Origin: Chryseobacterium geocarposphaerae
GTDB taxonomy: Bacteria > Bacteroidota > Bacteroidia > Flavobacteriales > Weeksellaceae
Assembly (NCBI RefSeq): GCF_002797535.1
Contig: NZ_PGFD01000002.1
Span: 867,232-931,231 of the forward strand
Reading direction: 5' to 3'
DNA length: 64,000 nt
Numbering within the stretch: the stretch's first letter is position 1; each line of letters opens with the position of its first letter. The position numbers and the translations under genes were made by a program. Shown here piece after piece: positions 12,609 to 32,950 of this stretch. Below the pieces are notes generated by a model. The model was not told where the DNA came from. It searched no databases and saw only the letters and a list, made by a program, of their open reading frames with translations.

Positions 12609-12672
12609 CTAACAATGTAACAATATAGCAATCGGACAGTTTTCAATGTTTAAAATATTGTTACATGGTTAG
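12609..12672. repeat. Intergenic hairpin repeat, GTAACAAT family
   Basis: An 18-base inverted repeat (left 12609-12626 ctaacaatgtaacaatat, right 12655-12672, 17/18 matching) sits between the ACP and acyltransferase genes. The same GTAACAAT motif forms the hairpin at 24111-24164. A promoter-like TAAATTTG follows at 12686-12693, only four bases before the next ATG. Confidence 0.75.
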
Positions 12673-21834: not shown

Positions 21835-22896
21835 TTATACTCTCCCCAACAAAACCAAACTATGATCATTTCCGCCAAGATGATTATAAAGCAAAATATT
21901 TTTCACTTTCTCCTTCTTCACTGAATTAATCATCATCACTTCCGGAATCTCCTGATTTTTCAAAATATGACAAGCCATAAACGTTGAAAAACCACTTGCT
22001 GTATTGAATTCTCCACTCAAATGTTTGTAATACAACAACGCTGAGTTTTCAAATAAATTCATTGATTTTGTATAATAAACATCAGATTTTGCATCTCCGC
22101 TGAAACCTAAAATTACAGCATCAATATCATTTGAAGTTAATCTGTTTTTAACTAAAAAATCTTCAATAAATTGCTGAGTTTCATCTAAATCTAATCTGCT
22201 GCTTATTTGAATATCTTTCAACTGAGCATAAGAACTTTCTGTTTTATCTTTTCCTAAAACAAAAAAACTTGCGCCTTCTCCCCAAATGACACCATCTGTT
22301 GTTGAGTTCAGATAATCAACAGGAAGATTTTCTTCTTTTTTAATGGTTTTGTTTAATTTGTACAATTCCATTGTTCGGTCGGTTTGTTCATCTGTAGAAC
22401 CTGCCAAAATGTTTTCTGCTTCACCGTCATTAATCTGTAATTTTGCATCTAAAAATGAAAATTCAAGTGATGAGGAAGTATTCACATACGTGAAATTATA
22501 CGCATGGCATTGCAAGCCTAAAGCAATTTGCCCCGCAACCGTATTGTGTGTAGATTGAATAAAATAGGTCGGAGTCAGAAACTCTTCATGATTATCAATT
22601 ACATTTTTTAAAAATTTTTCAGAATCCTGAGAACAGCCCATTCCGGTTCCGACGATAATCGCATCGGGATTTTCAATTCCGGCTTCCTTTAAAGCATATT
22701 GTGAAGCTACAGAACTCATTTTTACGGTTTTAGACATTCTTCTGCTTGCTGCAGGCGGAATGAACTCTTTGTAATTAGGTTCAATAGTTTTTAGAACCTG
22801 AGATGAATTTTCAGGCTTAAGATTATGGAAAAAATTTTCATTTAAAGTGTCCTGAACCGAGATGCAGGCTGCACTGTTGATGTAAACTGCACTCAT
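21835..22896 (-). CDS. Ketosynthase-like chain length factor, catalytically degenerate
   Basis: A 353-residue thiolase-fold protein lacking the ketosynthase triad. The active-site Cys is replaced by Ser in VNTSSSLEFSFLDA (about residue 142), the first His motif is AVILGFSGD with no His, and the second reads KHLSGEFNTASGF, with Glu where the His should be. The fold is kept (GTGMGCSQDSE, STHNTVAGQIALGL). This is what a chain length factor (ApeC-like) partner looks like. Its ATG overlaps the stop of the complete ketosynthase upstream (ATGA), so the two are probably a heterodimer. A longer frame starts at 22923, but the ATGA start is preferred. Confidence 0.82.
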   Translation of the reverse strand: MSAVYINSAACISVQDTLNENFFHNLKPENSSQVLKTIEPNYKEFIPPAASRRMSKTVKMSSVASQYALKEAGIENPDAIIVGTGMGCSQDSEKFLKNVIDNHEEFLTPTYFIQSTHNTVAGQIALGLQCHAYNFTYVNTSSSLEFSFLDAKLQINDGEAENILAGSTDEQTDRTMELYKLNKTIKKEENLPVDYLNSTTDGVIWGEGASFFVLGKDKTESSYAQLKDIQISSRLDLDETQQFIEDFLVKNRLTSNDIDAVILGFSGDAKSDVYYTKSMNLFENSALLYYKHLSGEFNTASGFSTFMACHILKNQEIPEVMMINSVKKEKVKNILLYNHLGGNDHSLVLLGRV

Positions 22897-24092
22897 GATT
22901 TTGAGAAAATTAAAGTTGAACAATTTCCTCCAAAACCAAACGAATTGGAAAGAACATGGTTAATATTTTTCTCTTTGAGTTCCGTCACAGGCGTTAAATC
23001 AAATTCTTCCATTTTAGTTTTAAAATTCAGATTTGGAAAAATCAAATTATTTTGAATGGCCAATAAAGAATACACCGCTTCAATCCCCGCCGCTGCGGCC
23101 AAAGTATGGCCTGTAAAAGCTTTCGTAGAACTAAATTCAGGAACATTGTTTTCTCCAAAAATTCTGATCATCGCAATTCCTTCGGACAAATCATTATTCG
23201 GAGTTGCCGTTCCGTGAACATTGATATAATCAATATTTTCTTTATCTAAACCGGAAACTTTCAAGGCTTTTTCCATTGCTAAATAAGCTCCCTGCCCGTT
23301 TTCCGAAGATGCAGTCTGGTGATGTGCATCGTTCGCGTTTCCATATCCGGAAAGATAACCGATGACTTTTTTATTTTCTTTTTTCACGATTTCATCAGAT
23401 TCTAAAACGATGAAAGCGGCAGCTTCACCAAGATTTAGCCCTTTTCTATTGTTGTCGAAAGGGGTATTGTAAGAATCCGTTAAAATCATTAACGTATTAA
23501 AACCATTTAACGTAAATTTTGAAAGGGAATCGGTTCCACCAACAATCACTCGGTCTAAAACACCGTTTTTAATGAGTTTTGCACCCATCATAATGGCATT
23601 GGCTGCAGACGAACAAGCCGTACTGATTGTTGAAACCATGCCTTTTAGGCCTAAATAATCTGCAATCAGTAATGATGAGTTTCCTGCATCGTGAGCATCA
23701 ATATATTTTTGCTTTTCAGGGAAGTCTTCGTAGGTGTAGAAATATTTTTCGGTGATGTCCATTCCGCCAACGCTTGTTGAAGAAATCAGGCCGGTTTTAT
23801 ATTCATTAATGTCGGAAATCCCAGCACTTTCTACGGCTTCTTTTGCGGCAACCATTCCTAATAAAGCAGTTCTTGTAGCGTTATTATCTTCTTTTAGCTG
23901 AAGTTTTTTCACAAGTTCTTCATTAGACAATTTGATTTCGCCCGTTTTAATATTTCCAACATGACGAGTCTCAAACAAGCTAATGTCTGAAATCCCATGT
24001 TTTCCGGATTTTAACGAATTCAAATTTTCCTCCACATTGTTTCCAATAGCGGAAATGATGCCCATTCCTGTTATGGCAATTTTTTGACCCAT
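22893..24092 (-). CDS. Beta-ketoacyl-ACP synthase, complete triad
   Basis: A 399-residue KAS II-type condensing enzyme. It has Cys in STACSSAANAIMMGA (about residue 160), His in NVHGTATPNNDLSE (about 290) and His in SSTKAFTGHTLAAAAGIEA (about 327). The C-terminal LSNSFGFGGNCSTLIF is typical. It is coupled by ATGA to the degenerate partner downstream and follows an ACP gene, with a hairpin repeat between them. Together they should form the polyene-extending ketosynthase/chain-length-factor pair, like ApeO/ApeC. Confidence 0.9.
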   Translation of the reverse strand: MGQKIAITGMGIISAIGNNVEENLNSLKSGKHGISDISLFETRHVGNIKTGEIKLSNEELVKKLQLKEDNNATRTALLGMVAAKEAVESAGISDINEYKTGLISSTSVGGMDITEKYFYTYEDFPEKQKYIDAHDAGNSSLLIADYLGLKGMVSTISTACSSAANAIMMGAKLIKNGVLDRVIVGGTDSLSKFTLNGFNTLMILTDSYNTPFDNNRKGLNLGEAAAFIVLESDEIVKKENKKVIGYLSGYGNANDAHHQTASSENGQGAYLAMEKALKVSGLDKENIDYINVHGTATPNNDLSEGIAMIRIFGENNVPEFSSTKAFTGHTLAAAAGIEAVYSLLAIQNNLIFPNLNFKTKMEEFDLTPVTELKEKNINHVLSNSFGFGGNCSTLIFSKS

Positions 24093-24110
24093 CTTATTTT
24101 ATAATGTAAC

Positions 24111-24164
24111 AATGTAACAATTTACCGATGTACAAATATTGTTACACTGGTAAATTGTTACATT
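24111..24164. repeat. Intergenic hairpin repeat, GTAACAAT family
   Basis: A perfect 16-base inverted repeat (aatgtaacaatttacc at 24111-24126 and its complement at 24149-24164) with a 22-base spacer lies between the ACP and ketosynthase genes. The same GTAACAAT motif occurs at 12609-12672. Confidence 0.85.
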
Positions 24165-24175
24165 GCCAGATTGAA

Positions 24176-24433
24176 TTATTTCGTTCTGTTTTCTTCAATG
24201 AATTTCGCCATGGTGTCGATCGAAGAGAAAATTTCTTTCCCTTTTTTCGGATCGGCTAATTTGATTCCGTATTCTTTATCCAAAAGCACGATCAATTCCA
24301 GCGCATCGATAGAATCCAATCCAAGACCTCCTCCAAATAACGGATCCGTATCTTTGATTTCTTCTACTGCAACGTCTTCTAAATTAAGAACTTCGATGAT
24401 TTTGTGCTTTAATTCTTCTCTTAAGTTTTCCAT
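24176..24433 (-). CDS. Acyl carrier protein (second)
   Basis: An 85-residue carrier with the phosphopantetheine Ser in GGGLGLDSIDALELIVLLDKEYG (about residue 41). Acidic flanks and the helical pattern are normal for the family. It lies between two repeat-filled gaps and is followed by the ketosynthase/chain-length-factor pair, so it is the likely carrier for that pair. The other cluster ACP (12334-12588) sits on the opposite arm. Confidence 0.9.
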   Translation of the reverse strand: MENLREELKHKIIEVLNLEDVAVEEIKDTDPLFGGGLGLDSIDALELIVLLDKEYGIKLADPKKGKEIFSSIDTMAKFIEENRTK

Positions 24434-24436
24434 AAA

Positions 24437-24583
24437 ATTAATTTGAAAATATGTTAATGAGACAATTTGAAAATATATTAATCAGATATTGAATTTAAAC
24501 TAAAAATATTCTGATAAATAATTGTTGTGCTTTATTGACATGATTTTACATTCTCAAATCAGCACATTTTCAAATTCTCAAAT
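24437..24583. repeat. AATTTGAAAAT repeat-filled gap
   Basis: Two direct copies of caatttgaaaatat(g/a)ttaat-type sequence (about 24449-24495) face an inverted copy (atcagcacattttcaaattctcaaattt, about 24557-24584). Together they resemble a degenerate hairpin of another flavobacterial repeat family. No gene is seen here. Confidence 0.5.
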
Positions 24584-25132
24584 TTATAATGTCAGCAAAT
24601 ATACGAAAGCATTATAACTTTCTTGATAGAGTTCTACCCAGCCACACAATACTTTATCAGCCTTGCCTGACTGTAAAATCTGTTCTGAGTAATCGTTTAA
24701 AAATTGTTCATCAAATTCATCCAAAACAAAAAAAGCATTCTCTGTCTGCATTTTATGTTTAATACTGATTTCCCCAACGCAAATATTAGGTAACGTATAC
24801 ACAAAAACGGCAGGGCTCGGGAAATAATTTTCCTGAGAATTGATGCTTTCCTGATATTTAAAATCGGTATCTAAACTTGATGATTTGTTAGCAAAAACCA
24901 AAGCTGTCCTGCTGTGTTCTTCATTTTTTAAAATCATTTCAGAAGCTAAAAAAGCGAGTTTACTCAAATTATCCATTTTATGAAATTTCGGATAATTCAA
25001 TTCTAAACTTTTGTAAGCTTCTTTTACAAAATCTGAAAAATTTTCAGTTTTAGTTTCAAAGATAATTTCGTTGTTGAGAATTATTTTTGAATTTTCTACG
25101 GTGCAGATGTCTGTTTTCTTCATCGTTTCCAT
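24584..25132 (-). CDS. Half-size ketosynthase-like protein
   Basis: A 182-residue protein that looks like the N-terminal half of a thiolase-fold ketosynthase. The [22 protein letters not shown] stretch and the [25 protein letters not shown] stretch (about 110-134) correspond to the region that in full enzymes leads into the active-site Cys. No catalytic Cys motif, His motif or C-terminal half follows. Similar short 3-oxoacyl-ACP-synthase-like proteins occur in flexirubin clusters, so this is unlikely to be a recent truncation. It starts directly after the stop of the complete ketosynthase upstream (translational coupling). It may be a structural partner; the function is unknown. Confidence 0.7.
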
Positions 25133-26302
25133 TTAGCATTTTTCTAAAACAATTGCAGCATTACAACCACCAAAACCTGAGGCCGTTTTCAAAATATATT
25201 TAATTTCCGCAGGTTGGTTTTCTTTAATAATATTCAAAGGTTGGGAAGTCCCCGTTTCTTCGAAATTTTTAGATGGTATTAAAGTATTGTTCAAGGCAGA
25301 TTCCATTGAAATGATGCTTTCCAATAACCCGGAAGCTCCTAAACAGTGTCCGTAATAGCCTTTCATACTATTTAATGGAACATTCTGCAAGTTCATTCTA
25401 TTGAAAGCGATGGCTTCCATTTCGTCGTTATATATTGTTGCTGTTCCGTGTGCAGAAATAAAATCAATTTTTTCTGTCGGGATATTGGCTTCTGTCATTG
25501 CATTTTTAATGCTTGCAAACAATCCTTCACCGGTTCTTGATGGTCCCGAAATATGGTTCGCATCGTTAATTGCTGAATCTCCTAAAACTTTAAAACTAAA
25601 TTTTTCGTTTGAGATTGCTTCGTCACTTCGTTCCTCGCATTGACTAGTAATATAAACCGCTGCAGTTGCTTCACCGATGTTAATTCCGTCACGATTTTTG
25701 TCGTAGGGTTTACAAATTTCTGTTCCGATCGCCTGAAAAGAATTGAAACCAGAAATCACAAATTCCGAAATTTCATCTCCGGCAATGACAAAAGCATCTT
25801 TATATTTTCCTGCCTGGATCATATTTTTCGCAACAGCAATCGCCATAACTCCTGAAACACAGGCATTAGAAACCACAATCGGTTTTGTTTTAAATCCGAA
25901 AAAGTCAGCAATTTTTTGAGCCAAGTTTGAAAGGAAAACGCCTTCCGGTAAAGTTTCCTGATTTTTTAATAAGCTGATATTTCCTTTTGTAGTTGATAAA
26001 ATAAAAACCGTTTCTTCTGAAATCTGATGTTTTTCAACCAAAGGTTTTAAACTTAATAAAAACATTTTTTCAAGTCGTGTGAATTCCAAATTGTCATTTT
26101 GAGCTCTGTCGAAGAATTCATTAAACTCTTCATTCAATTTTTCCGAATCAATCATAGAAGCATAAAAAGGCTCCTGATTTTCTATGATCTTATGTAAAGC
26201 TACTCCAGATTTTCCTTCCAAAAGAGCATTCCAATTTGAAGAAACATCAAAACCTAAAGGCGTGACGCAGTTGTAATCTGTAATGTAAACTTCCTTCTTC
26301 AT
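25133..26302 (-). CDS. Beta-ketoacyl-ACP synthase with repeat-encoded insert
   Basis: A 389-residue condensing enzyme with a complete triad: Cys148 in SNACVSGVMAIAVAKN, His in SAHGTATIYNDEMEA (about residue 283) and His in SMKGYYGHCLGASGLLES (about 322). Residues 221-231 (QCEERSDEAIS) are encoded by a dispersed flavobacterial repeat (25610-25644) that sits in frame between a conserved strand (AAVYITS) and KVLGDSAIND. A second repeat-like stretch encodes FFDRAQNDN (about 63-71). The ATG overlaps the thioesterase stop (ATGA). The enzyme is probably functional because the frame and motifs are intact. Confidence 0.88.
   Translation of the reverse strand: MKKEVYITDYNCVTPLGFDVSSNWNALLEGKSGVALHKIIENQEPFYASMIDSEKLNEEFNEFFDRAQNDNLEFTRLEKMFLLSLKPLVEKHQISEETVFILSTTKGNISLLKNQETLPEGVFLSNLAQKIADFFGFKTKPIVVSNACVSGVMAIAVAKNMIQAGKYKDAFVIAGDEISEFVISGFNSFQAIGTEICKPYDKNRDGINIGEATAAVYITSQCEERSDEAISNEKFSFKVLGDSAINDANHISGPSRTGEGLFASIKNAMTEANIPTEKIDFISAHGTATIYNDEMEAIAFNRMNLQNVPLNSMKGYYGHCLGASGLLESIISMESALNNTLIPSKNFEETGTSQPLNIIKENQPAEIKYILKTASGFGGCNAAIVLEKC
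25610..25644. repeat. Dispersed repeat inside a ketosynthase gene
   Basis: The plus-strand sequence gagattgcttcgtcacttcgttcctcgcattgac matches the well-known GAGATTGCTTCGTC...CCTCGCAATGAC repeat of Bacteroidota, recognised from memory. It keeps the reading frame and adds about 11 residues on a probable surface loop. Confidence 0.8.
26092..26119. repeat. Possible second in-frame repeat in the ketosynthase gene
   Basis: tgtcattttgagctctgtcgaagaattc resembles the dispersed TGTCATTCTGAGCTTGTCGAAGAATC repeat and encodes EFFDRAQND-type residues in frame. The match is shorter and less certain than at 25610-25644. Confidence 0.45.
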
Positions 26303-26724
26303 GATAATCCCATTTTATCTTTCCAGGCCTGAAAAAAATCAGGATTATACAAACATAAATTATTGTCAGAATCTAGGAAAACCTGAATGGTTTCTCCTGA
26401 GCAGACCAATTTATTGTCTTCGTTAAAAAGCTCGTATCTGTAAATCAATTTTGCAGAATTTGAATTAACAAAAGTGGTTACAATTTTAAAGGTTTCCCCG
26501 TATTTTAAAGGAAGAAAATGTTCACAGGTGCTTTTTACGATCGGTGTAACGTAACCTGCTTTCTGAATATCAAGATACGTCAAACCGTGCTGTCTTCCGA
26601 AAGCTTCTCTTCCGTCTTCAAAATACACGATGTAATGTCCATGCCAGACAATTCCCAACGGATCTGTTTCGTTGAATCTTACGCGGACTTCTTCTGTACA
26701 AATTAAATTTTCTTTAGACTGCAT
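26299..26724 (-). CDS. Acyl-CoA/ACP thioesterase, 4HBT hotdog family
   Basis: A 141-residue YbgC-like thioesterase. The catalytic Asp lies in FNETDPLGIVWHGHYIVYFEDGRE (about residues 17-40), the signature of 4-hydroxybenzoyl-CoA-type enzymes. It would release the finished polyene or another acyl product from its carrier (the role of ApeK). It ends with an ATGA overlap with the ketosynthase. Its start sequence (AAAACAAAATGCAGT) recurs at the 3' end of the ABC permease gene as part of the direct repeat that brackets the GxxExxY cassette, so the two genes once overlapped. Confidence 0.87.
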   Translation of the reverse strand: MQSKENLICTEEVRVRFNETDPLGIVWHGHYIVYFEDGREAFGRQHGLTYLDIQKAGYVTPIVKSTCEHFLPLKYGETFKIVTTFVNSNSAKLIYRYELFNEDNKLVCSGETIQVFLDSDNNLCLYNPDFFQAWKDKMGLS

Positions 26725-26736
26725 TTTGTTTTCTTT
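26713..26736. repeat. Direct repeat, left boundary of the GxxExxY cassette
   Basis: A 24-base sequence (tttagactgcattttgttttcttt on plus) covers the thioesterase start codon. It matches 27394-27417 in 23 of 24 positions, with the last 19 identical. It has the form of a target-site duplication around the 657-bp segment 26737-27393. Confidence 0.85.
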
Positions 26737-26741
26737 TTTTT

Positions 26742-26840
26742 ACCACAAAGGGCACAAAGGTTTTCACAAGGTTCACGAAATAAATTTTTACATTTTCTTT
26801 TTGCGCTCTTTGTTTTAAAACCTTTGTGTTCTTTGTGGTT
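26742..26840. repeat. ACCACAAAGG hairpin repeat, copy 1
   Basis: The left arm (accacaaagggcacaaaggtttt, 26742-26764) and right arm (aaaacctttgtgttctttgtggtt, 26817-26840) pair at most positions. It shares its internal order of motifs (CACAAGG, CACGAAATAAAT, GCTCTTTGT) with copy 2 in the same orientation. Confidence 0.85.
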
Positions 26841-26897
26841 AATAAACCCCGAAGTTTACAAAGTTATACACAATGTTCACAATGGTTATTCTAAATT

Positions 26898-27278
26898 TTA
26901 TATCGTTCCGTTGATTAATCTTTTAACACCATTTTTAAATAAAACTGAGTTAAAATTAATCAATAAACCCAACTTGCAATTGCTTAATTTTAAATACGTT
27001 AAAACTTGAGCAATATGAATTTCATTTAATGATTCTACGGATTTTATTTCAACAACAACTTTTCTCTCAACCAATAAATCAATCCTATAGCCAATGTTAA
27101 GTTTTATATCATCATAAATTAATGGCATTGGTTTCTGTTTTTCGATTAGCAATCCGGATTTCTGTAACTCATAGTACAGACATTCTTCGTATGCGCTTTC
27201 TAAAAGTCCAGCTCCAAGTTGGCGATGAACTTTTAATCCGGAATCAAATATAACTTTTGAAATCTCATTTTCATTCAT
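26898..27278 (-). CDS. GxxExxY protein (PD-(D/E)XK-type fold)
   Basis: A 126-residue protein of the GxxExxY family (PF13366), named for the GLLESAY motif seen here at residues 24-30. The region DLLVERKVVVEIKS gives Asp67, Glu77 and Lys79, the catalytic pattern of PD-(D/E)XK nucleases. Function in the family is not established to my knowledge. The gene is alone between two direct hairpin repeats inside an operon of unrelated genes, all within a direct-repeat-bounded segment. It is therefore likely cargo of, or active in, a mobile unit rather than part of pigment synthesis. Confidence 0.88.
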   Translation of the reverse strand: MNENEISKVIFDSGLKVHRQLGAGLLESAYEECLYYELQKSGLLIEKQKPMPLIYDDIKLNIGYRIDLLVERKVVVEIKSVESLNEIHIAQVLTYLKLSNCKLGLLINFNSVLFKNGVKRLINGTI

Positions 27279-27304
27279 CTCATTTTGTGTTTTATAATTA
27301 TTTT

Positions 27305-27391
27305 TACCACAAAGGTCACAATAGGTTCCACAAGGGACACAAAATAAATGCTTGAGCTCTTTGTGAAAAATCTTAGTGACCTTTGTGGTTA
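27305..27391. repeat. ACCACAAAGG hairpin repeat, copy 2
   Basis: The left arm taccacaaaggtca (27305-27318) pairs with tgacctttgtggtta (27377-27391). The internal motifs (CACAAGGGACACAAAATAAAT, GAGCTCTTTGT) follow copy 1 in the same orientation, so the two copies are direct repeats flanking the gene. Confidence 0.85.
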
Positions 27392-27393
27392 AA

Positions 27394-27417
27394 TTTAAAC
27401 TGCATTTTGTTTTCTTT
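27394..27417. repeat. Direct repeat, right boundary of the GxxExxY cassette
   Basis: tttaaactgcattttgttttcttt on plus, 23/24 identical to 26713-26736. It encodes the last residues and stop codon of the ABC permease (RKQNAV-stop) on the minus strand. Confidence 0.85.
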
Positions 27418-28663
27418 CGTAAAATAATGAAATAGCGACCATGGCTACATAAAATAAAAATAAGAAAGTGATTTCTTTAGCAATTCCGCCGATTCCGCTG
27501 TTTCTTAAAATGATATCGTAATACGCATTCAAGCCCCAGTTCATAGGAGAGAATTTGGCGATCGTCTGCATAAATTCAGGCATTAAAAATACCGGAACCC
27601 AAATTCCTCCGACAGCCGCCAAAACGACAACCGAAGTTGCCCCAAAAGGCGCAGACTGTTCCTGTGTATCGGCAACAGTTCCCAATAAAACACCAAAACC
27701 AATGGCTGCCAAACCTGAAAATAAGGTCACAACAATAAGTTGCAACATTTTTCCTGTCACGTCAAACTGTGGTAAATCCATATAAGGAAAAAGGTAAATT
27801 CCTACCGCCACCATCAGTAAAAACTGAATAACACAAATGATAAGATACGTAAACGTTTTTCCTAAAATATGGATAAAGTAAGGAGTCGGACTGATTCTCG
27901 CTCTCACGCTCGTTCCCTGGCTTTTTTCTTTCACTAAATTAATAGACAATGGTACAACAATAAAGAAAATCGCAAACAAAGCCCAAGCCGGGACGTTGTG
28001 CTGAACGGAATTCGGCATGACATCCATGTTGCCTTTTTTCGGGGTGATTTCTTTAAAGCTGATCAAATTTTTATTTTCTTCCAGGTTTTCCGTCGTCCCC
28101 AGCTGATCCTGGAAAGCTTTGTAAATCTTTTTATTTTCGATCTCAAAAACCATTTTGTTTACGGCATTCATGACATTGTTTTTGAAGCCGATATTCGTAG
28201 CCGGATCAAAATACAGATGAATATCTTTCGCTTTTGAAACCGTTTTCTTCACGGCGGAAGAATCCGTTTCCAGACCGAATGAACTCACGATGGTCTGAAC
28301 TTTAGAATCAATATTTGAATTGATATCTTTCGTTAAATTCTTAGGAATAACAATCGCCATTTGATAATCGCCACCAAAAACAGCATTCTGAGCGGATTGT
28401 TCCGTAAAATTGGTTAGTAACTCAAATGTTTTGCTGCTTTCGAGCTCCTGTTTTATATTTTTTGAAACTTCTGACTTGTCATTATCAATAAAAATAATCG
28501 GGATTTTTGAACCTTCCAGATTTTTAAACGTAGAATCCTGAATCAAAGTAATCGTGATAATCAACAGTAAAGGCATGACGAAAATAATGACGATTCCTCC
28601 AATATCTCTTTTCAGCAAAAGGATTTCCTTAACGAAACTTCTCCACAGTTTATACAACAACAT
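27395..28663 (-). CDS. ABC-2 type transporter permease
   Basis: A 422-residue inner-membrane permease of the ABC-2/DrrB-YhfE type. One N-terminal membrane helix (about 22-42, GGIVIIFVMPLLLIITITLI) is followed by a large periplasmic domain (about 45-220). Five further helices come in the C-terminal half (from WALFAIFFIVVPLSINLV onward). It pairs with the ATPase upstream, whose gene it overlaps by 14 bases. Such pairs appear in flexirubin clusters and may export pigment precursors or lipids. Its C-terminal codons form one copy of the direct repeat described at 27394-27417. Confidence 0.88.
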   Translation of the reverse strand: MLLYKLWRSFVKEILLLKRDIGGIVIIFVMPLLLIITITLIQDSTFKNLEGSKIPIIFIDNDKSEVSKNIKQELESSKTFELLTNFTEQSAQNAVFGGDYQMAIVIPKNLTKDINSNIDSKVQTIVSSFGLETDSSAVKKTVSKAKDIHLYFDPATNIGFKNNVMNAVNKMVFEIENKKIYKAFQDQLGTTENLEENKNLISFKEITPKKGNMDVMPNSVQHNVPAWALFAIFFIVVPLSINLVKEKSQGTSVRARISPTPYFIHILGKTFTYLIICVIQFLLMVAVGIYLFPYMDLPQFDVTGKMLQLIVVTLFSGLAAIGFGVLLGTVADTQEQSAPFGATSVVVLAAVGGIWVPVFLMPEFMQTIAKFSPMNWGLNAYYDIILRNSGIGGIAKEITFLFLFYVAMVAISLFYERKQNAV

Positions 28664-29405
28664 CCCTTAATTCTTTTCCGGTTAATGAAATGAAAACATC
28701 TTCTAAGTTTTCGGCATTTGTTACTCTGTTCACCAATTCTTCAGGGGTTCCTACCGCATGAATTTTTCCGTGATCGATGATGGCAATTTTCGTACAGAAT
28801 TCCTCCGCTTCTGAAAGGTGATGCGAGGTATAAATGATACAGGTTCCTTTTTTATTCAGATCCAAAAGGTGGTCGATGATGGCTTTTTTTGACTGAACAT
28901 CAACGCCAACGGTTGGTTCGTCCAGAAAAAGAACCTTCGGATTGTGAAGTGTTCCCGCAATCAGATTGCAGCGACGCTTCATTCCGCCTGAAAACTGTTC
29001 TACTTTTTTATCGTCGAATTTTGACAAACCCATGATTTCCAAAGATTCATCAATAGCATTTCTTAATTTTTTGTGACTTAAGCCATACAGACTTCCAAAA
29101 AACATTAAGTTTTCTTTAGCGGTCAAAGTTGGATACAAAGCATATTCCTGAGGAACGATTCCAATGATCTGTCTTAATTTAAAACCATCTTTTTGAGGAG
29201 TTAATCCATTGATTTTAAAGCTTCCTGATGTTGGTTTTATTAAACCTGAAAGCATGGAAATCAATGTTGTTTTTCCCGCTCCGTTGGGCCCGAGAATTCC
29301 GTAGATTTCGTCTTTATCAATATTCAACGAAATATCATTTACAGAAAACTCTTCTGCATTTTTATATTTTTTATATAAATTTTTAATCTCAATAAAATTC
29401 TCCAT
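28650..29405 (-). CDS. ABC transporter ATP-binding protein
   Basis: A 251-residue ATPase. It has Walker A GPNGAGKTT (residues 39-47), a Q-loop near IVPQEYALYPTL, the signature FSGGMKRRCNL (about 140-150), Walker B VLFLDEPTVGVD (about 159-170) and the switch His in YTSHHLSEAEE. The C-terminal tail is short. It drives the ABC-2 permease encoded next, with which it overlaps by 14 bases. The start directly follows the BtrH-like gene (ATG at 29405, previous stop at 29406). Confidence 0.92.
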   Translation of the reverse strand: MENFIEIKNLYKKYKNAEEFSVNDISLNIDKDEIYGILGPNGAGKTTLISMLSGLIKPTSGSFKINGLTPQKDGFKLRQIIGIVPQEYALYPTLTAKENLMFFGSLYGLSHKKLRNAIDESLEIMGLSKFDDKKVEQFSGGMKRRCNLIAGTLHNPKVLFLDEPTVGVDVQSKKAIIDHLLDLNKKGTCIIYTSHHLSEAEEFCTKIAIIDHGKIHAVGTPEELVNRVTNAENLEDVFISLTGKELRDVVV

Positions 29406-30401
29406 TTAGATCGCTTTTCTCAGTTTTTTATAGAAAGCTTCTTCCAGATCTGCAATATGAAGCATCGTTTTTGATAGCTGGTTGTAAATATCGCTTTTCG
29501 AGTTTCTGTTTTTGTAAACTCGTGCAATATCCACCGCGAAATCTCTCCAAAGATCACCAATTGCTGTAATTTCTTTAGAAAGCTCTCTCAATTTATCATT
29601 TTTAAGGATCACCGCAGCTTCCTGTAAGAAAGCTCCGTAAATAAATCTGAAACCACCTCCTCCGGTTCCGATTTCTTCCTGCATTCTGATCAGTTGTCCC
29701 AAATAATGATTGGTTGTTTTTGTTCCTTTTTTTGCCGCCCATTTCGGGATGCTTTTGGCCACCCATCGCATCGCTTTTACTCCAATGATCGGAACGGGAG
29801 CCAACATATTTTTACAGGTATCTTTAATCCCTTTTTTGATCGCTTCTTCCAGATTTACATTTTCGGGAATGTAAGTAGGGTAGTACATATGACCTTTCGG
29901 CGGAAGAGCGCCTTTTGCATATCTTACTTTCTCCAGTTCGGCTTCGGTAAGCGTAGTGGTGTAATCCATCACAGGATCACTGATCAGGAATTTTCCGTCT
30001 TCTTTTCCGTAAACAACAAGGTTATGGGCATTGAAGTGGAATTTATATTCTTCAGGAAAATAGGTGAGGTTGAAAACGCCAACCTGAAGTCCTGTCGGGA
30101 TATTATTTTCTAAATTTTTTTCCAGCGCTTTTTGGGCTTCTGCCGGATTTGAGAATTTGATTCTTTTAATTTTTATTCCCAGTCTTTTTGCCGCTTTGCT
30201 GAAAATCGCACCTGGCATCGGGCGATAACTGAAACCGGGAGCGAAATTCACTTTTAAAAAAGGAAGATACACAAAGAACAATCCGGAACCGATTCCGAAG
30301 ATCATGGGTTCGCTGAGTTTTAACCCTTTGTTTAATAGTAAATTAGAGGCGACACCGTTTTCGCAATGTGCGGTCTGATGGTGTTCAAAATTAAGTTTCA
30401 T
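29406..30401 (-). CDS. BtrH N-terminal domain/DUF4872 protein, papain-like acyltransferase candidate
   Basis: A 331-residue protein. Residues about 10-140 match the BtrH N-terminal domain (PF14399), a C39-peptidase-like fold. Cys13 in AHCENGVASNLL is the likely nucleophile, His125 in FNAHNLVVYG and Asp138 in ISDPVMDY complete a triad. A DUF4872-like helical domain follows (about 180-325). The namesake BtrH in butirosin biosynthesis transfers an acyl group from a carrier protein to an aminoglycoside. By analogy this protein could move the ACP-bound polyene onto the dialkylresorcinol hydroxyl. This is inference; no flexirubin ester synthase is proven to me. Confidence 0.82.
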   Translation of the reverse strand: MKLNFEHHQTAHCENGVASNLLLNKGLKLSEPMIFGIGSGLFFVYLPFLKVNFAPGFSYRPMPGAIFSKAAKRLGIKIKRIKFSNPAEAQKALEKNLENNIPTGLQVGVFNLTYFPEEYKFHFNAHNLVVYGKEDGKFLISDPVMDYTTTLTEAELEKVRYAKGALPPKGHMYYPTYIPENVNLEEAIKKGIKDTCKNMLAPVPIIGVKAMRWVAKSIPKWAAKKGTKTTNHYLGQLIRMQEEIGTGGGGFRFIYGAFLQEAAVILKNDKLRELSKEITAIGDLWRDFAVDIARVYKNRNSKSDIYNQLSKTMLHIADLEEAFYKKLRKAI

Positions 30402-30457
30402 TTTTTCTTATCTCTTTTTATCGCGGATAACTTTGCTAAACCTATGAGGTTTGTATT

Positions 30458-30862
30458 TTATTTTCCGTCGAAGTTTTTTAGTTCATCTACTGAAATTCCG
30501 AAAGCATCGGCATATTTTTTCAGTACGGATTCACTTAGTGTTTTAAAAATTTTTGGTTTTGCATGTCTTTTTACCCGCCATTGCCACATTCCAACATAGG
30601 CTGCCAAAACCTGTAAATCCATCTTATTCAGCTCCATGAAATAAATAATTGGACTTACTTTATTATTGGCAACGTTTTGTTTTGCTTCTTCAATACGCTC
30701 ATGAATCAGCTCCATCGATTCTTCCAGTGCTGCTTTTTTGGCGTCCCAGCCAATGCTGTTGGCGGTGGTGTAATTGTCATTTTCATCCGTCACATATAAC
30801 ACTTCGGTCATGTTGGCTGACTTCAGATTGCTTTCGTCTTGAGGAAGGTCTTGTTTTTTCAT
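30458..30862 (-). CDS. Hypothetical cytosolic protein of the pigment cluster
   Basis: A 134-residue acidic, helical protein with no signal peptide. The centre (AALEESMELIHERIEEAKQNVANNKVSPIIYFMELNKMDLQVLAAYVGMWQWRVKRH, about 45-101) is well conserved-looking and amphipathic. The C-terminal part (PKIFKTLSESVLKKYADAFGISVDELKN) recalls a short helix-turn-helix-like segment. It lies four bases after the dehydratase stop in a tight operon, which argues for a role in the pathway. I do not recognise the family. Confidence 0.65.
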   Translation of the reverse strand: MKKQDLPQDESNLKSANMTEVLYVTDENDNYTTANSIGWDAKKAALEESMELIHERIEEAKQNVANNKVSPIIYFMELNKMDLQVLAAYVGMWQWRVKRHAKPKIFKTLSESVLKKYADAFGISVDELKNFDGK

Positions 30863-30866
30863 TGGT

Positions 30867-31310
30867 TTAGTGTTTTACTTCTTGAATAAACAAATTAATT
30901 TCAGCCCGTATCAACAATTCATCATTGTTAAATGTCTCACAGAAGATATGGCATATATTTTCAAACTGAGAAATCAAAGAGGCTTTTGAAATGATCTTAT
31001 CACCCACTTTCGGTAAGGCAAAGACTTCAATTTTCTTAATATTGGTAATGAAACCGATTACCTTTGTGTCTGCATCAGGATTTTCGAAGAAGCTTTGTCC
31101 GAGAATGGATGAACAGGTCTGTGCTAGATTTTCGATCAAACCAGCCTCAACGAATTCATTGTTGTGAACAAAAACATTGTCTTCTTTTATTTCAAAGGAA
31201 GTGATCACTTTTTCCTGGGTTAATTCCAAAATATAATCCGCCATTAGCATCGGTTCGCGATGCGGCAAAAAGTTGTGGATATTGATGATATTTTCTTCCT
31301 TGATTTCCAT
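30867..31310 (-). CDS. Hotdog-fold dehydratase, ApeP-like (first)
   Basis: A 147-residue single-hotdog protein. The N-terminal LPHREPMLMADYI (about 14-26) is the FabZ/FabA-type entry motif, and AGLIENLAQTCS (about 56-67) has the Glu of the GxxIExxAQ motif. The GHFPG stretch that carries the FabZ His is absent; the equivalent loop reads NVFVHNNEFVE. It should act in polyene dehydration, perhaps with another hotdog partner. The gene is upstream of the unknown 134-residue protein and downstream of a second dehydratase gene across a 69-base gap. Confidence 0.78.
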   Translation of the reverse strand: MEIKEENIINIHNFLPHREPMLMADYILELTQEKVITSFEIKEDNVFVHNNEFVEAGLIENLAQTCSSILGQSFFENPDADTKVIGFITNIKKIEVFALPKVGDKIISKASLISQFENICHIFCETFNNDELLIRAEINLFIQEVKH

Positions 31311-31379
31311 TCAATTATATATTATTTTGAATTAAATTTTAACGCAAAGTTCGCAAGTTTTTAATTCAAATATTTAATA
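31311..31379. repeat. Fragment of a TTAACGCAAAG repeat
   Basis: The gap between the two hotdog genes contains tttaacgcaaagttcgcaag, a scrap of the same repeat family seen near 13742. No hairpin partner remains. Confidence 0.35.
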
Positions 31380-31811
31380 TTACATTATAACAGTTTTCAT
31401 TTGGGATTTGGCAATTATTTCACCATTAAGTTTTGTAATAATATCTACCAATGTTACGCCCATCATTTCATTAAGAATGGTGACTTCAGATTTCAACTGA
31501 TCACCGATTTTTGGCAATACATCTGTTTCAAAAGATTTGATAGCACCAATATAACCTGTAGGAGCTTCTTTCCCTAACAGATAAAATTTGTAGCCGGTGT
31601 GTAAAGCCACACTCTGCGCCTGATGTTCCACCAAACCCGAAGCCTGAAAAATTCCGTCCTGAACAAAAATATTTCCCTCTTTTATTTCAAATCCTGAAAT
31701 CAGATGATTTTCAGAGTATTCTGTAATGCTGTTTACCATTACAAAAGGAAACCGTTGCGGAATTAAGCTTTCTACAAAGTTTTGGTCAGATGTTGGTAAT
31801 TTGTTTTCCAT
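31380..31811 (-). CDS. Hotdog-fold dehydratase, ApeP-like (second)
   Basis: A 143-residue hotdog protein. It has IPQRFPFVMVNSIT (about 17-30) and SGLVEHQAQSVAL (about 58-70) with the conserved Glu. As in its neighbour, the His-bearing GHFPG loop is missing (IFVQDGIFQA). I place the start at the ATG of MENKLPTSD, which overlaps the darB stop by one base (TAATG); a longer frame to 31835 exists but overlaps darB by 25 bases. Two adjacent diverged paralogues suggest a heterodimer or separate substrates for the polyene and the dialkylresorcinol branch. Confidence 0.8.
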   Translation of the reverse strand: MENKLPTSDQNFVESLIPQRFPFVMVNSITEYSENHLISGFEIKEGNIFVQDGIFQASGLVEHQAQSVALHTGYKFYLLGKEAPTGYIGAIKSFETDVLPKIGDQLKSEVTILNEMMGVTLVDIITKLNGEIIAKSQMKTVIM

Positions 31812-32950
31812 TAGCAAACCGTTAACAAAGCACATGAATATGCGAATCTCCCACTCTCAGGAACACAAAGAAGCACTTTTTCTCCTTTTTTCAGCTTTCC
31901 TGAATTCATTAATTCTTCCACAGCGATGAAGATTGATCCAGCTCCGATATTTCCAACTTCAGAAAGATTGTAGAACCATTTTTCCCAAGGGAAATCTAAA
32001 CCTACATTGGCAAATTCTTCTTTTAGTCCTTCTTTAAAATATCCAGAGGAAATATGCGCCAAAACATGGTCTACAGTTTCAGGATCTAAATTATGCTTAT
32101 CAAAAGATGATCTTAAACTTTCAGCACCTTTTACCAGAATATATTTATCTAAAATTTTTGTGTCCTGCTTTAATGCAAAAATCGACTGCTTCAACCATTC
32201 GTCTGATGGGTAATCTGCCCAGGATTTCAGGCTTCCGTCTTCCTGCTTTTCGCAACCAGCGTACATACAAGCTTCGATCTCGTGAGCGTAAGAATAGAAA
32301 TCGATCCATTCTACTTTTAAATTCGTTGCGTTTTCTCTTGGTTTATTTTCCAGCAAGAAAGCTCCTGCTCCGTCGGAAAGCATCCATCTCAGGAATTCTC
32401 TTTTGAAAGCAATGATGGGTCTTTCTTCCAGTAAGATTAAATTTTCTGCTTCATGGTTGAATTTATCTGCCGTCATCCAGGCCGACATTCTTTCAGAACC
32501 TGCACAAACAGCTTTTTCCTGAACTCCTGCTTTCACGGAAAGGAATCCGTAGTTCAGAGCATTCATCCCAGAGTTGCAAAGTCCTGTTGCGGTATTAATT
32601 TCAATAGATCTTCCGATGTTGAGCTCACCATGAACCATTGAAGCGTGGGAAGGCTGAATCTGATCGGGTGATGTTGTTCCGACAGACAATAATTTCATGT
32701 CTTCCTTTTTGAAATTTTCATCAAAAAGTCCCTCAATCGCTTTTGCTGTGATCTGAGCATTCGTATGAGTAGGGTTTCCTTCTTTGTCTAAAGCATAATA
32801 TCTTGTCGTAATTTTATTATTTCTTAAAATAAGTGCTTTTGCTTTAGATTTTGCGCCATTTATATAACCAAGATACGTTTCCATTTCGTCATTAGAAACC
32901 GGCTCATTGGGTAAGTATTTTGATGCTTTTGTTATAAATACGTCGTACAT
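31811..32950 (-). CDS. darB: Dialkylresorcinol synthesis ketosynthase DarB (KAS III-like)
   Basis: A 379-residue KAS III-type condensing enzyme. Cys125 is in ATGLCNSGMNALNYG, His in LAHISSGYFKEGL (about 290) and Asn in LSEVGNIGAGSIFIA (about 324). It matches DarB, which with DarA condenses two fatty acyl-derived chains to a cyclohexanedione that becomes the dialkylresorcinol half of flexirubin. It is two bases downstream of darA and overlaps the next dehydratase by one base. The order darA-darB fixes the identity of the cluster. Confidence 0.92.
   Translation of the reverse strand: MYDVFITKASKYLPNEPVSNDEMETYLGYINGAKSKAKALILRNNKITTRYYALDKEGNPTHTNAQITAKAIEGLFDENFKKEDMKLLSVGTTSPDQIQPSHASMVHGELNIGRSIEINTATGLCNSGMNALNYGFLSVKAGVQEKAVCAGSERMSAWMTADKFNHEAENLILLEERPIIAFKREFLRWMLSDGAGAFLLENKPRENATNLKVEWIDFYSYAHEIEACMYAGCEKQEDGSLKSWADYPSDEWLKQSIFALKQDTKILDKYILVKGAESLRSSFDKHNLDPETVDHVLAHISSGYFKEGLKEEFANVGLDFPWEKWFYNLSEVGNIGAGSIFIAVEELMNSGKLKKGEKVLLCVPESGRFAYSCALLTVC

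Follow-up and report, generated by a model that had tools for sequence, protein, structure and literature searches.

Palindromic arms around a GxxExxY nuclease-like gene at a permease-thioesterase junction: a candidate mobile cassette without a transposase

How does a small gene with no transposase beside it come to separate two genes that overlap in related genomes? The question is raised by a segment of the Chryseobacterium geocarposphaerae contig NZ_PGFD01000002.1, found within a stretch of 64,000 nucleotides that we analysed as a whole and call the window. Here a gene of the GxxExxY family, framed by hairpins and by a 24-nt direct repeat, lies between an ABC-2 type transporter permease gene and a thioesterase-superfamily gene (Table 1). 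The reading that we favour is a selfish palindromic cassette placed between operon genes, which comparison supports, encoding a nuclease that would act on the array of units in its arms. We put it at about even that the segment is a copy of a family of small palindrome-bounded mobile cassettes that resemble the intervening sequences (IVSs) of rRNA and carry a GxxExxY nuclease gene.

The architecture described in the initial annotation was recovered from the open reading frames (ORFs) and repeat comparisons. The two copies of the direct repeat agree at 23 of 24 positions, the final 19 of them consecutive, and lie 657 bp apart. As had been described, they repeat the end of the permease gene and the start of the thioesterase gene, so both genes are intact. 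Two hairpins flank the GxxExxY gene, one with 30-nt arms (87% match) and one with 18-nt arms (94% match), and the outermost arms also match across the gene (27 nt, 85%, with 602 nt between). The same gene-in-loop geometry was seen at both other GxxExxY loci of this genome, and in two orthologues, L041 and L047, the sole arm 3' of the gene is the CACAAAG-type stretch, which by eye matches the arm 5' of the gene. The window arms are built of CRCAAAG-like units about 9 bp apart. With at most one mismatch, ACCACAAAGG occurs 7 times in the window against 2.9 expected (3 of 100 shuffles reach as many), and 5 of the 7 fall inside the cassette; the remaining two have no second unit after them, and the window holds no further two-unit copies, which leaves the solo repeats once thought to be scattered through this cluster without a counterpart. 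The absence of a transposase was confirmed: neither a transposase nor a recombinase is present, the GxxExxY gene being the sole ORF of at least 80 amino acids (aa) within 26713-27417, and visual inspection of the ORFs of 22000-32000, where profiles were run on the two neighbours only, revealed no CRISPR or recombination genes. Folding of the window segment gave two separate hairpins (z -3.8, 20 shuffles). An Rfam search returned four matches, all to miRNA families and far under the gathering scores, and a known structured RNA was thus ruled out as the identity of the cassette.

The encoded protein of 126 aa matches TIGR04256 (GxxExxY) at 143.9 bits (cut-off 35) and PF13366 (PDDEXK_3) at 139.6 bits (cut-off 22); its profile matches to Cas4 are weak. 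It carries the GLLESAY motif, and Asp67, Glu77 and Lys79, the residues that had been picked out as a nuclease pattern, do not vary among 16 aligned congeneric proteins or in an alignment of 40, mostly from other genera. The invariant positions are E27, D67, E77-x-K79, Q91 and Y95. The protein has both the fold and the D...(D/E)xK residues that mark the PD-(D/E)XK superfamily, and by its sequence the active site is Cas4-like and intact, so that nuclease activity is predicted. In fold and motif set it is like the Cas4, lambda-exonuclease and AddB-type nucleases; unlike them, it is a single domain. No function for the family is given in the available text of the open-licence PMC papers searched, including PMC8934634. 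GxxExxY genes are present in 140 of 148 genomes of the genus and in records from several phyla. They were found in 8 of 72,556 plasmid records, all eight typed as non-mobilizable, and in none of 50,697 phage records, which rules out phage carriage as their route. Inserts at the window junction show signs of purifying selection, with a mean amino-acid difference of 0.076 and a third-position difference of 0.24. Decayed copies also exist, at L021 and, with stop codons, in genomes G135 and G033. The G135 locus (L027) contains tandem partial duplications of the permease end, the first hairpin and the GxxExxY start, along with the GxxExxY copy that has a stop codon.

Comparison of relatives revealed the junction in both empty and filled forms. 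All 148 congeneric genomes have a thioesterase match, and the junction was read in 90 of them (30 loci of a first set and 60 further regions): 48 are empty, which answers the earlier call to look for an empty site, 11 hold a GxxExxY gene and 31 hold other inserts, such as short hairpins and gene-less ATTAAG-type palindromes. At an empty junction the permease stop overlaps the thioesterase start (ATGCAGTCTAA or a close variant). G028, the nearest genome by its thioesterase gene, is empty here. It holds a GxxExxY cassette at another site (L082), where G110 has only 9 bp, and a third site, L002, is empty in G079. Filled and empty forms of one site, as expected of a mobile element, were thus found at the window junction and at the L082 and L002 sites.

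Other features of these sites may be recorded here. The counterpart of the L082 site in the window genome (L288) contains 253 bp of different sequence, whose inverted arms are different too. Same-junction inserts at L333, L336, L352, L355, L365 and L369 open with AGCCGGGAACCTGCTGTCCACTAT-like sequence close to the end of the permease; an arm of CACAAAGG type terminates four of these (L336, L355, L365 and L369), a pattern of nested or replaced repeats. Junction inserts of about 50-85 bp (L023, L030, L035, L331, L358 and others) alter the permease C-terminus, which becomes KLHSV- or KLHNV-like instead of KQNAV.

The 24-bp duplication belongs to the cassette at the window junction. A direct repeat between permease end and thioesterase start reached a score of at least 10 at 8 of 11 GxxExxY junctions and at 0 of 31 junctions with other inserts (9 of 11 and 11 of 31 at a score of at least 8), and L196, the named orthologue of the window locus, also carries it. 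Flanking direct repeats had been expected at GxxExxY genes elsewhere, and this expectation failed. An abutting repeat passed the 95th percentile at 3 of 44 armed loci; two of these, L001 and L196, are the window site, and the third is the arm sequence itself. None of 19 palindromes without a full gene passed, one of the 19 being part of the L027 cassette, and comparison of the L082 site with the empty one in G110 revealed no duplication. A target-site duplication as a trait of the family was thus ruled out. The cassette therefore shows neither of the hallmarks of an insertion sequence, namely a transposase or recombinase and a target-site duplication across copies. Of the movement proposed in the initial annotation, what survives are the empty sites and the joint presence of arms and gene at unrelated sites, while the duplication as a general signature of transposition does not. 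The simplest account is probably a single founding event: the duplication would date from the first entry of the cassette, into two overlapping genes neither of which could be lost, and would since have travelled with it, with no fixed target-site duplication.

At this junction the cassette has been transferred between species without the adjoining permease. In the flank tree, built from 483 columns and 90 rows, 10 changes are needed to explain the 11 rows with GxxExxY, compared to 10.6 with shuffled labels, and at least 4 of the changes are forced by well-supported branches. Among the 10 full-length inserts (the decayed L021 was dropped), third-position difference is lower in the insert gene than in the adjoining permease in 45 of 45 pairs; the cassette has therefore moved from species to species at this one position, while the neighbouring permease sequence stayed behind. 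The insert-to-permease ratios range from about 0.1 to 0.8, and vertical descent with losses is disfavoured because this ratio should then be steadier. Over the 60 bp of permease adjoining the insert, filled pairs show no greater similarity than the empty pairs compared, which rules out a co-conversion tract as a sign of homing; on the thioesterase side this comparison was ungapped and is unusable where the start region has indels. The driver of the same-site transfer could be either host recombination or the cassette's own nuclease.

Arms frame GxxExxY genes well beyond this junction. The window genome has two more such genes, each within inverted arms of another sequence (CCCACAGATTTCRCAAAT-like and ACCATTAAGGCATTAAG-like). 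Across eight genomes from which all matches were taken, instead of score-ranked picks, the flanks of 19 of 26 GxxExxY genes match each other above 95% of cross-locus pairs. From public genomes we took 80 loci among the matches listed, a set in which peptide patterns favour window-like proteins and which is no random sample. In 57 of 78 of these, CRCARAG units crowd the gene, compared to 0 of 62 control stretches, so that the hairpin-framed relatives anticipated in the initial annotation do exist. The units are inverted at the gene ends and near background beyond about 300 bp (78 listed loci, mostly Bacteroidota). Loci from several phyla have units at both gene ends; some titled as metagenome-assembled genomes (Bifidobacterium, Rhizobium) are probably mis-binned contigs and count as loci, with no bearing on host range. 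Four of the eight plasmid-borne relatives were inspected, and three of them have upstream/downstream units within 250 bp (Gemmatirosa 3/3, Bacteroides 2/3, Bernardetia 2/2). The same unit thus recurs at unrelated sites, as a mobile element would, and arms are common, not universal, around GxxExxY genes. Repeats of this kind frame so many relatives in other bacteria as to suggest that a small mobile element lacking a transposase has been overlooked.

Similar arms also occur without the gene. Ten further places in the window genome have a related arm, most of them visibly gene-less hairpins, with both ends found by script at six. These palindromes have ACCACAAAAG ends and mostly measure 145-174 bp end to end; 0 of 18 copies lie inside an ORF, and for 14 of the 17 that have a neighbour on each side, these neighbours are co-directional. 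For only two of the ten places does the sister genome have a copy of that pattern at the corresponding site, a comparison in which a changed copy would be missed. With one palindrome as query, we obtained 60 matches in G115, 45 in G092, 31 in G055 and 3 in G080, counts that include matches to flank genes and both arms of some copies. The arms of these gene-less palindromes also enclose a GxxExxY gene, L084 in G131, and the palindromes may be non-autonomous members of the family.

Arm sequence follows the protein. Of 104 arm-searched loci, 51 were armed (defined by an arm score of 33 or more and an open frame), and after removal of 75 flank-sharing pairs, arm similarity correlated with protein identity at unrelated sites (Spearman 0.50, 0/2000 permutations; 0.28 and 4/2000 within the genus only). 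At two orthologous sites, covering 6 and 7 genomes, left and right arms within a genome agree at about 0.90, compared to 0.65 for the same arm between genomes, in a comparison that used arms trimmed by their own match, a choice favouring this result, and left out orthologue L136, where the script found no arm match. This suggests that arm pairing is maintained, either through selection on the stem or because one arm is copied onto its partner. At L002 the fold is a single stem of 40 pairs round the gene (z -6.7). The arms of GxxExxY loci have a 9-nt rhythm (p 6e-4 and 6e-5; at 7 nt, p 0.21 and 0.03), and a 21-nt period is weak (p 0.02 and 0.78 in the two sets). We also fetched 30 loci of the four-helix-bundle family TIGR02436, which we take to be the S23p family; the flanks of 21 match each other above the 95th percentile, and their arms have a rhythm of 7 nt (p 3e-16; at 9 nt, p 0.98). 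A family-specific rhythm would be expected if each protein reads its own arms, and we take it as a hint in that direction. TIGR02436 genes are numerous, with 11 matches in the window genome; at 27 of the 30 loci (L105-L134) they are co-directional with both neighbours, and many lie between inverted arms.

Several known systems share part of this organisation. In the available text of PMC4990558, a 428-nt 23S rRNA IVS is a small S23p ORF within a long stem of terminal inverted repeats, is termed a selfish element and is shown to be cut by RNase III. In the cassette, too, terminal inverted repeats make up the stem and an ORF occupies the loop, though the window fold itself consists of two hairpins, and the TIGR02436 genes of this genus also lie between inverted arms. 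Unlike the IVS, the cassette encodes a PD-(D/E)XK nuclease, occupies an operon junction instead of rRNA, has dispersed gene-less copies and has arms with a 9-nt instead of a 7-nt rhythm. REPtrons and TIRtrons, as described in the accessible part of PMC3733652, carry RAYT or TIRYT transposase genes between repetitive extragenic palindromic (REP) or inverted repeats, with gene-less repeats dispersed. The cassette shares with them a lone gene flanked by palindromic repeats and an abundance of gene-less copies; unlike REPtrons, it has no HUH/Y1 transposase and carries a Cas4-like nuclease (PDDEXK_3) gene. Short, dispersed, gene-less palindromes also recall miniature inverted-repeat transposable elements (MITEs), so far as the portion of PMC10969869 available describes them, but ours have no abutting duplication and no parent transposase was seen; their apparent parent (L084) carries GxxExxY. 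With homing endonuclease elements the cassette shares an exchange pattern only, in that the insert is common to one site across species and the adjoining permease is not; it differs in having no intron or intein, many insertion sites and no detected co-conversion tract. The cassettes are set apart from rRNA IVSs and REPtrons because a defining feature of each fails, the site in one case and the transposase in the other, and there is a real chance that they form a class of their own beyond these resemblances. No description of such cassettes was found in the available text of the open-licence PMC papers searched.

We propose that each cassette consists of two inverted arms of short repeated units that would form one long stem, with the GxxExxY gene in the loop, and that it may be a selfish element behaving as the 23S rRNA IVS does, lodged in operon junctions. 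It could be tolerated because its transcript folds into the stem, perhaps to be cut by RNase III, or merely because of its position between genes. The protein, a single-domain relative of Cas4 and lambda exonuclease, may recognise the arm units when they are folded or branched and cut or resect the DNA there, after which repair would copy the cassette into the matching place in a homing-like manner; alternatively, cutting at the arms might move palindromes elsewhere. A broader proposal is possible, and we hold it tentatively: an undescribed class of mobile element over several phyla, whose arms are the binding array of a small loop-encoded protein in at least two versions (a GxxExxY nuclease at 9 nt and an S23p four-helix bundle at 7 nt), the protein mobilising its own cassette and gene-less palindromes without a transposase and homing into operon junctions, with rRNA IVSs as a special case. 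The tie between GxxExxY and a defined DNA architecture offers a concrete substrate for a family to which the papers searched assign no function; through it a common class of dispersed repeats would be explained, and rRNA IVSs, REP-like palindromes and a nuclease family would be connected.

Several observations weigh against a mobile cassette driven by its own nuclease. The fourth plasmid-borne gene, in Sphingomonas (NZ_CP155749.1, L393, lying between fabD and fabG), has 0/0 CRCARAG units within 250 bp and CGCGAAG-like units upstream only. In a score-ranked sample of the genus, 6 of 33 loci exceed the 95th percentile, three of them loci of the window genome and two the window site in other genomes, and most top scorers have no arms. 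Among the 78 listed loci, 24 lie above the 95th percentile of cross-locus pairs, a low rate because the arms of different loci resemble each other. The trimming of arms and the omission of L136 belong here too, as does the lack of any insertion signature outside the window site among the 44 armed loci and 19 palindromes. At the L002 and L003 sites, orthologue proteins are 67-89% identical, as in old inherited copies, and ordinary homologous recombination by the host could account for transfer into the same site. GxxExxY genes are co-directional with both neighbours at 56 of 70 loci, but the ratio of sense to antisense among co-directional neighbour pairs, 56:3, has a parallel in ordinary genes (135:13), and direction bias was dropped as a sign of function at the RNA level.

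These points leave room for other explanations. The palindromes might be ordinary gene-less REP- or MITE-like repeats moved by another enzyme, with GxxExxY a passenger or host gene that a pair of them happens to enclose, and same-site transfer due to host homologous recombination. This would fit the excess of gene-less over gene-bearing copies in G115, G092 and G055, the 31 junctions with other inserts and the composite-like layout of two complete hairpins around the window gene; we consider it rather unlikely, since the arms track the protein at unrelated sites, units sit at both gene ends in loci from several phyla, and the arms differ in rhythm from those of the four-helix-bundle genes, which would not be expected of passengers. 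A stable operon module, in which the stem is an RNA control element (for processing, termination or stability) of a GxxExxY gene useful to the host, for example in defence or repair, and in which gains and losses are ordinary gene turnover, is less probable again. The co-directional placement, the signs of selection on the protein, the stem at L002 and the weak Cas4 matches agree with such a module, yet the direction bias is shared by ordinary genes, copies decay, gene-less copies are dispersed and the insert is exchanged without the permease. The passenger and operon-module explanations each cover part of the data, and neither accounts jointly for arm-protein tracking and interspecies transfer. 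The transposon-like cassette first proposed, making long target-site duplications of about 24 bp, is quite improbable: the clean duplication relative to the empty site and its restriction, at the higher score, to GxxExxY inserts are what it predicts, but no duplication accompanies the other armed loci, the L082 insertion or the gene-less palindromes, and all the GxxExxY inserts at this junction may trace to one event.

Table 1. Parts of the cassette and the adjoining genes, in window positions.
Feature	Position	Strand	Basis
Direct-repeat copy, thioesterase side; covers thioesterase start codon	26713..26736	.	Repeat comparison
Direct-repeat copy, permease side; covers permease stop codon	27394..27417	.	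Repeat comparison
Hairpin 3' of gene, arms 26735-26764 and 26817-26846, CACAAAG-type units	26735..26846	.	Inverted-repeat search, folds
Extra arm-like stretch, CACAAAG-type units, between 3' hairpin and gene	26838..26889	.	Third direct-repeat copy, 62%
GxxExxY gene, 126 aa, PD-(D/E)XK nuclease-like	26898..27278	-	ORF, profile matches, alignments
Hairpin 5' of gene, arms 27302-27319 and 27376-27393	27302..27393	.	Inverted-repeat search, folds
Whole palindrome-bounded cassette, gene in loop; outer arms 26738-26764 and 27367-27393 able to pair	26738..27393	.	
Thioesterase-superfamily gene (PF13279, 4HBT family), downstream of insertion	26299..26724	-	Profile match
ABC-2 type transporter permease gene (PF12698), upstream of insertion	27395..28663	-	Profile match

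The gene cluster around the cassette contains another type of hairpin, palindromes with a AATGTAACA repeat at window positions 24103-24172 and 12609-12672.
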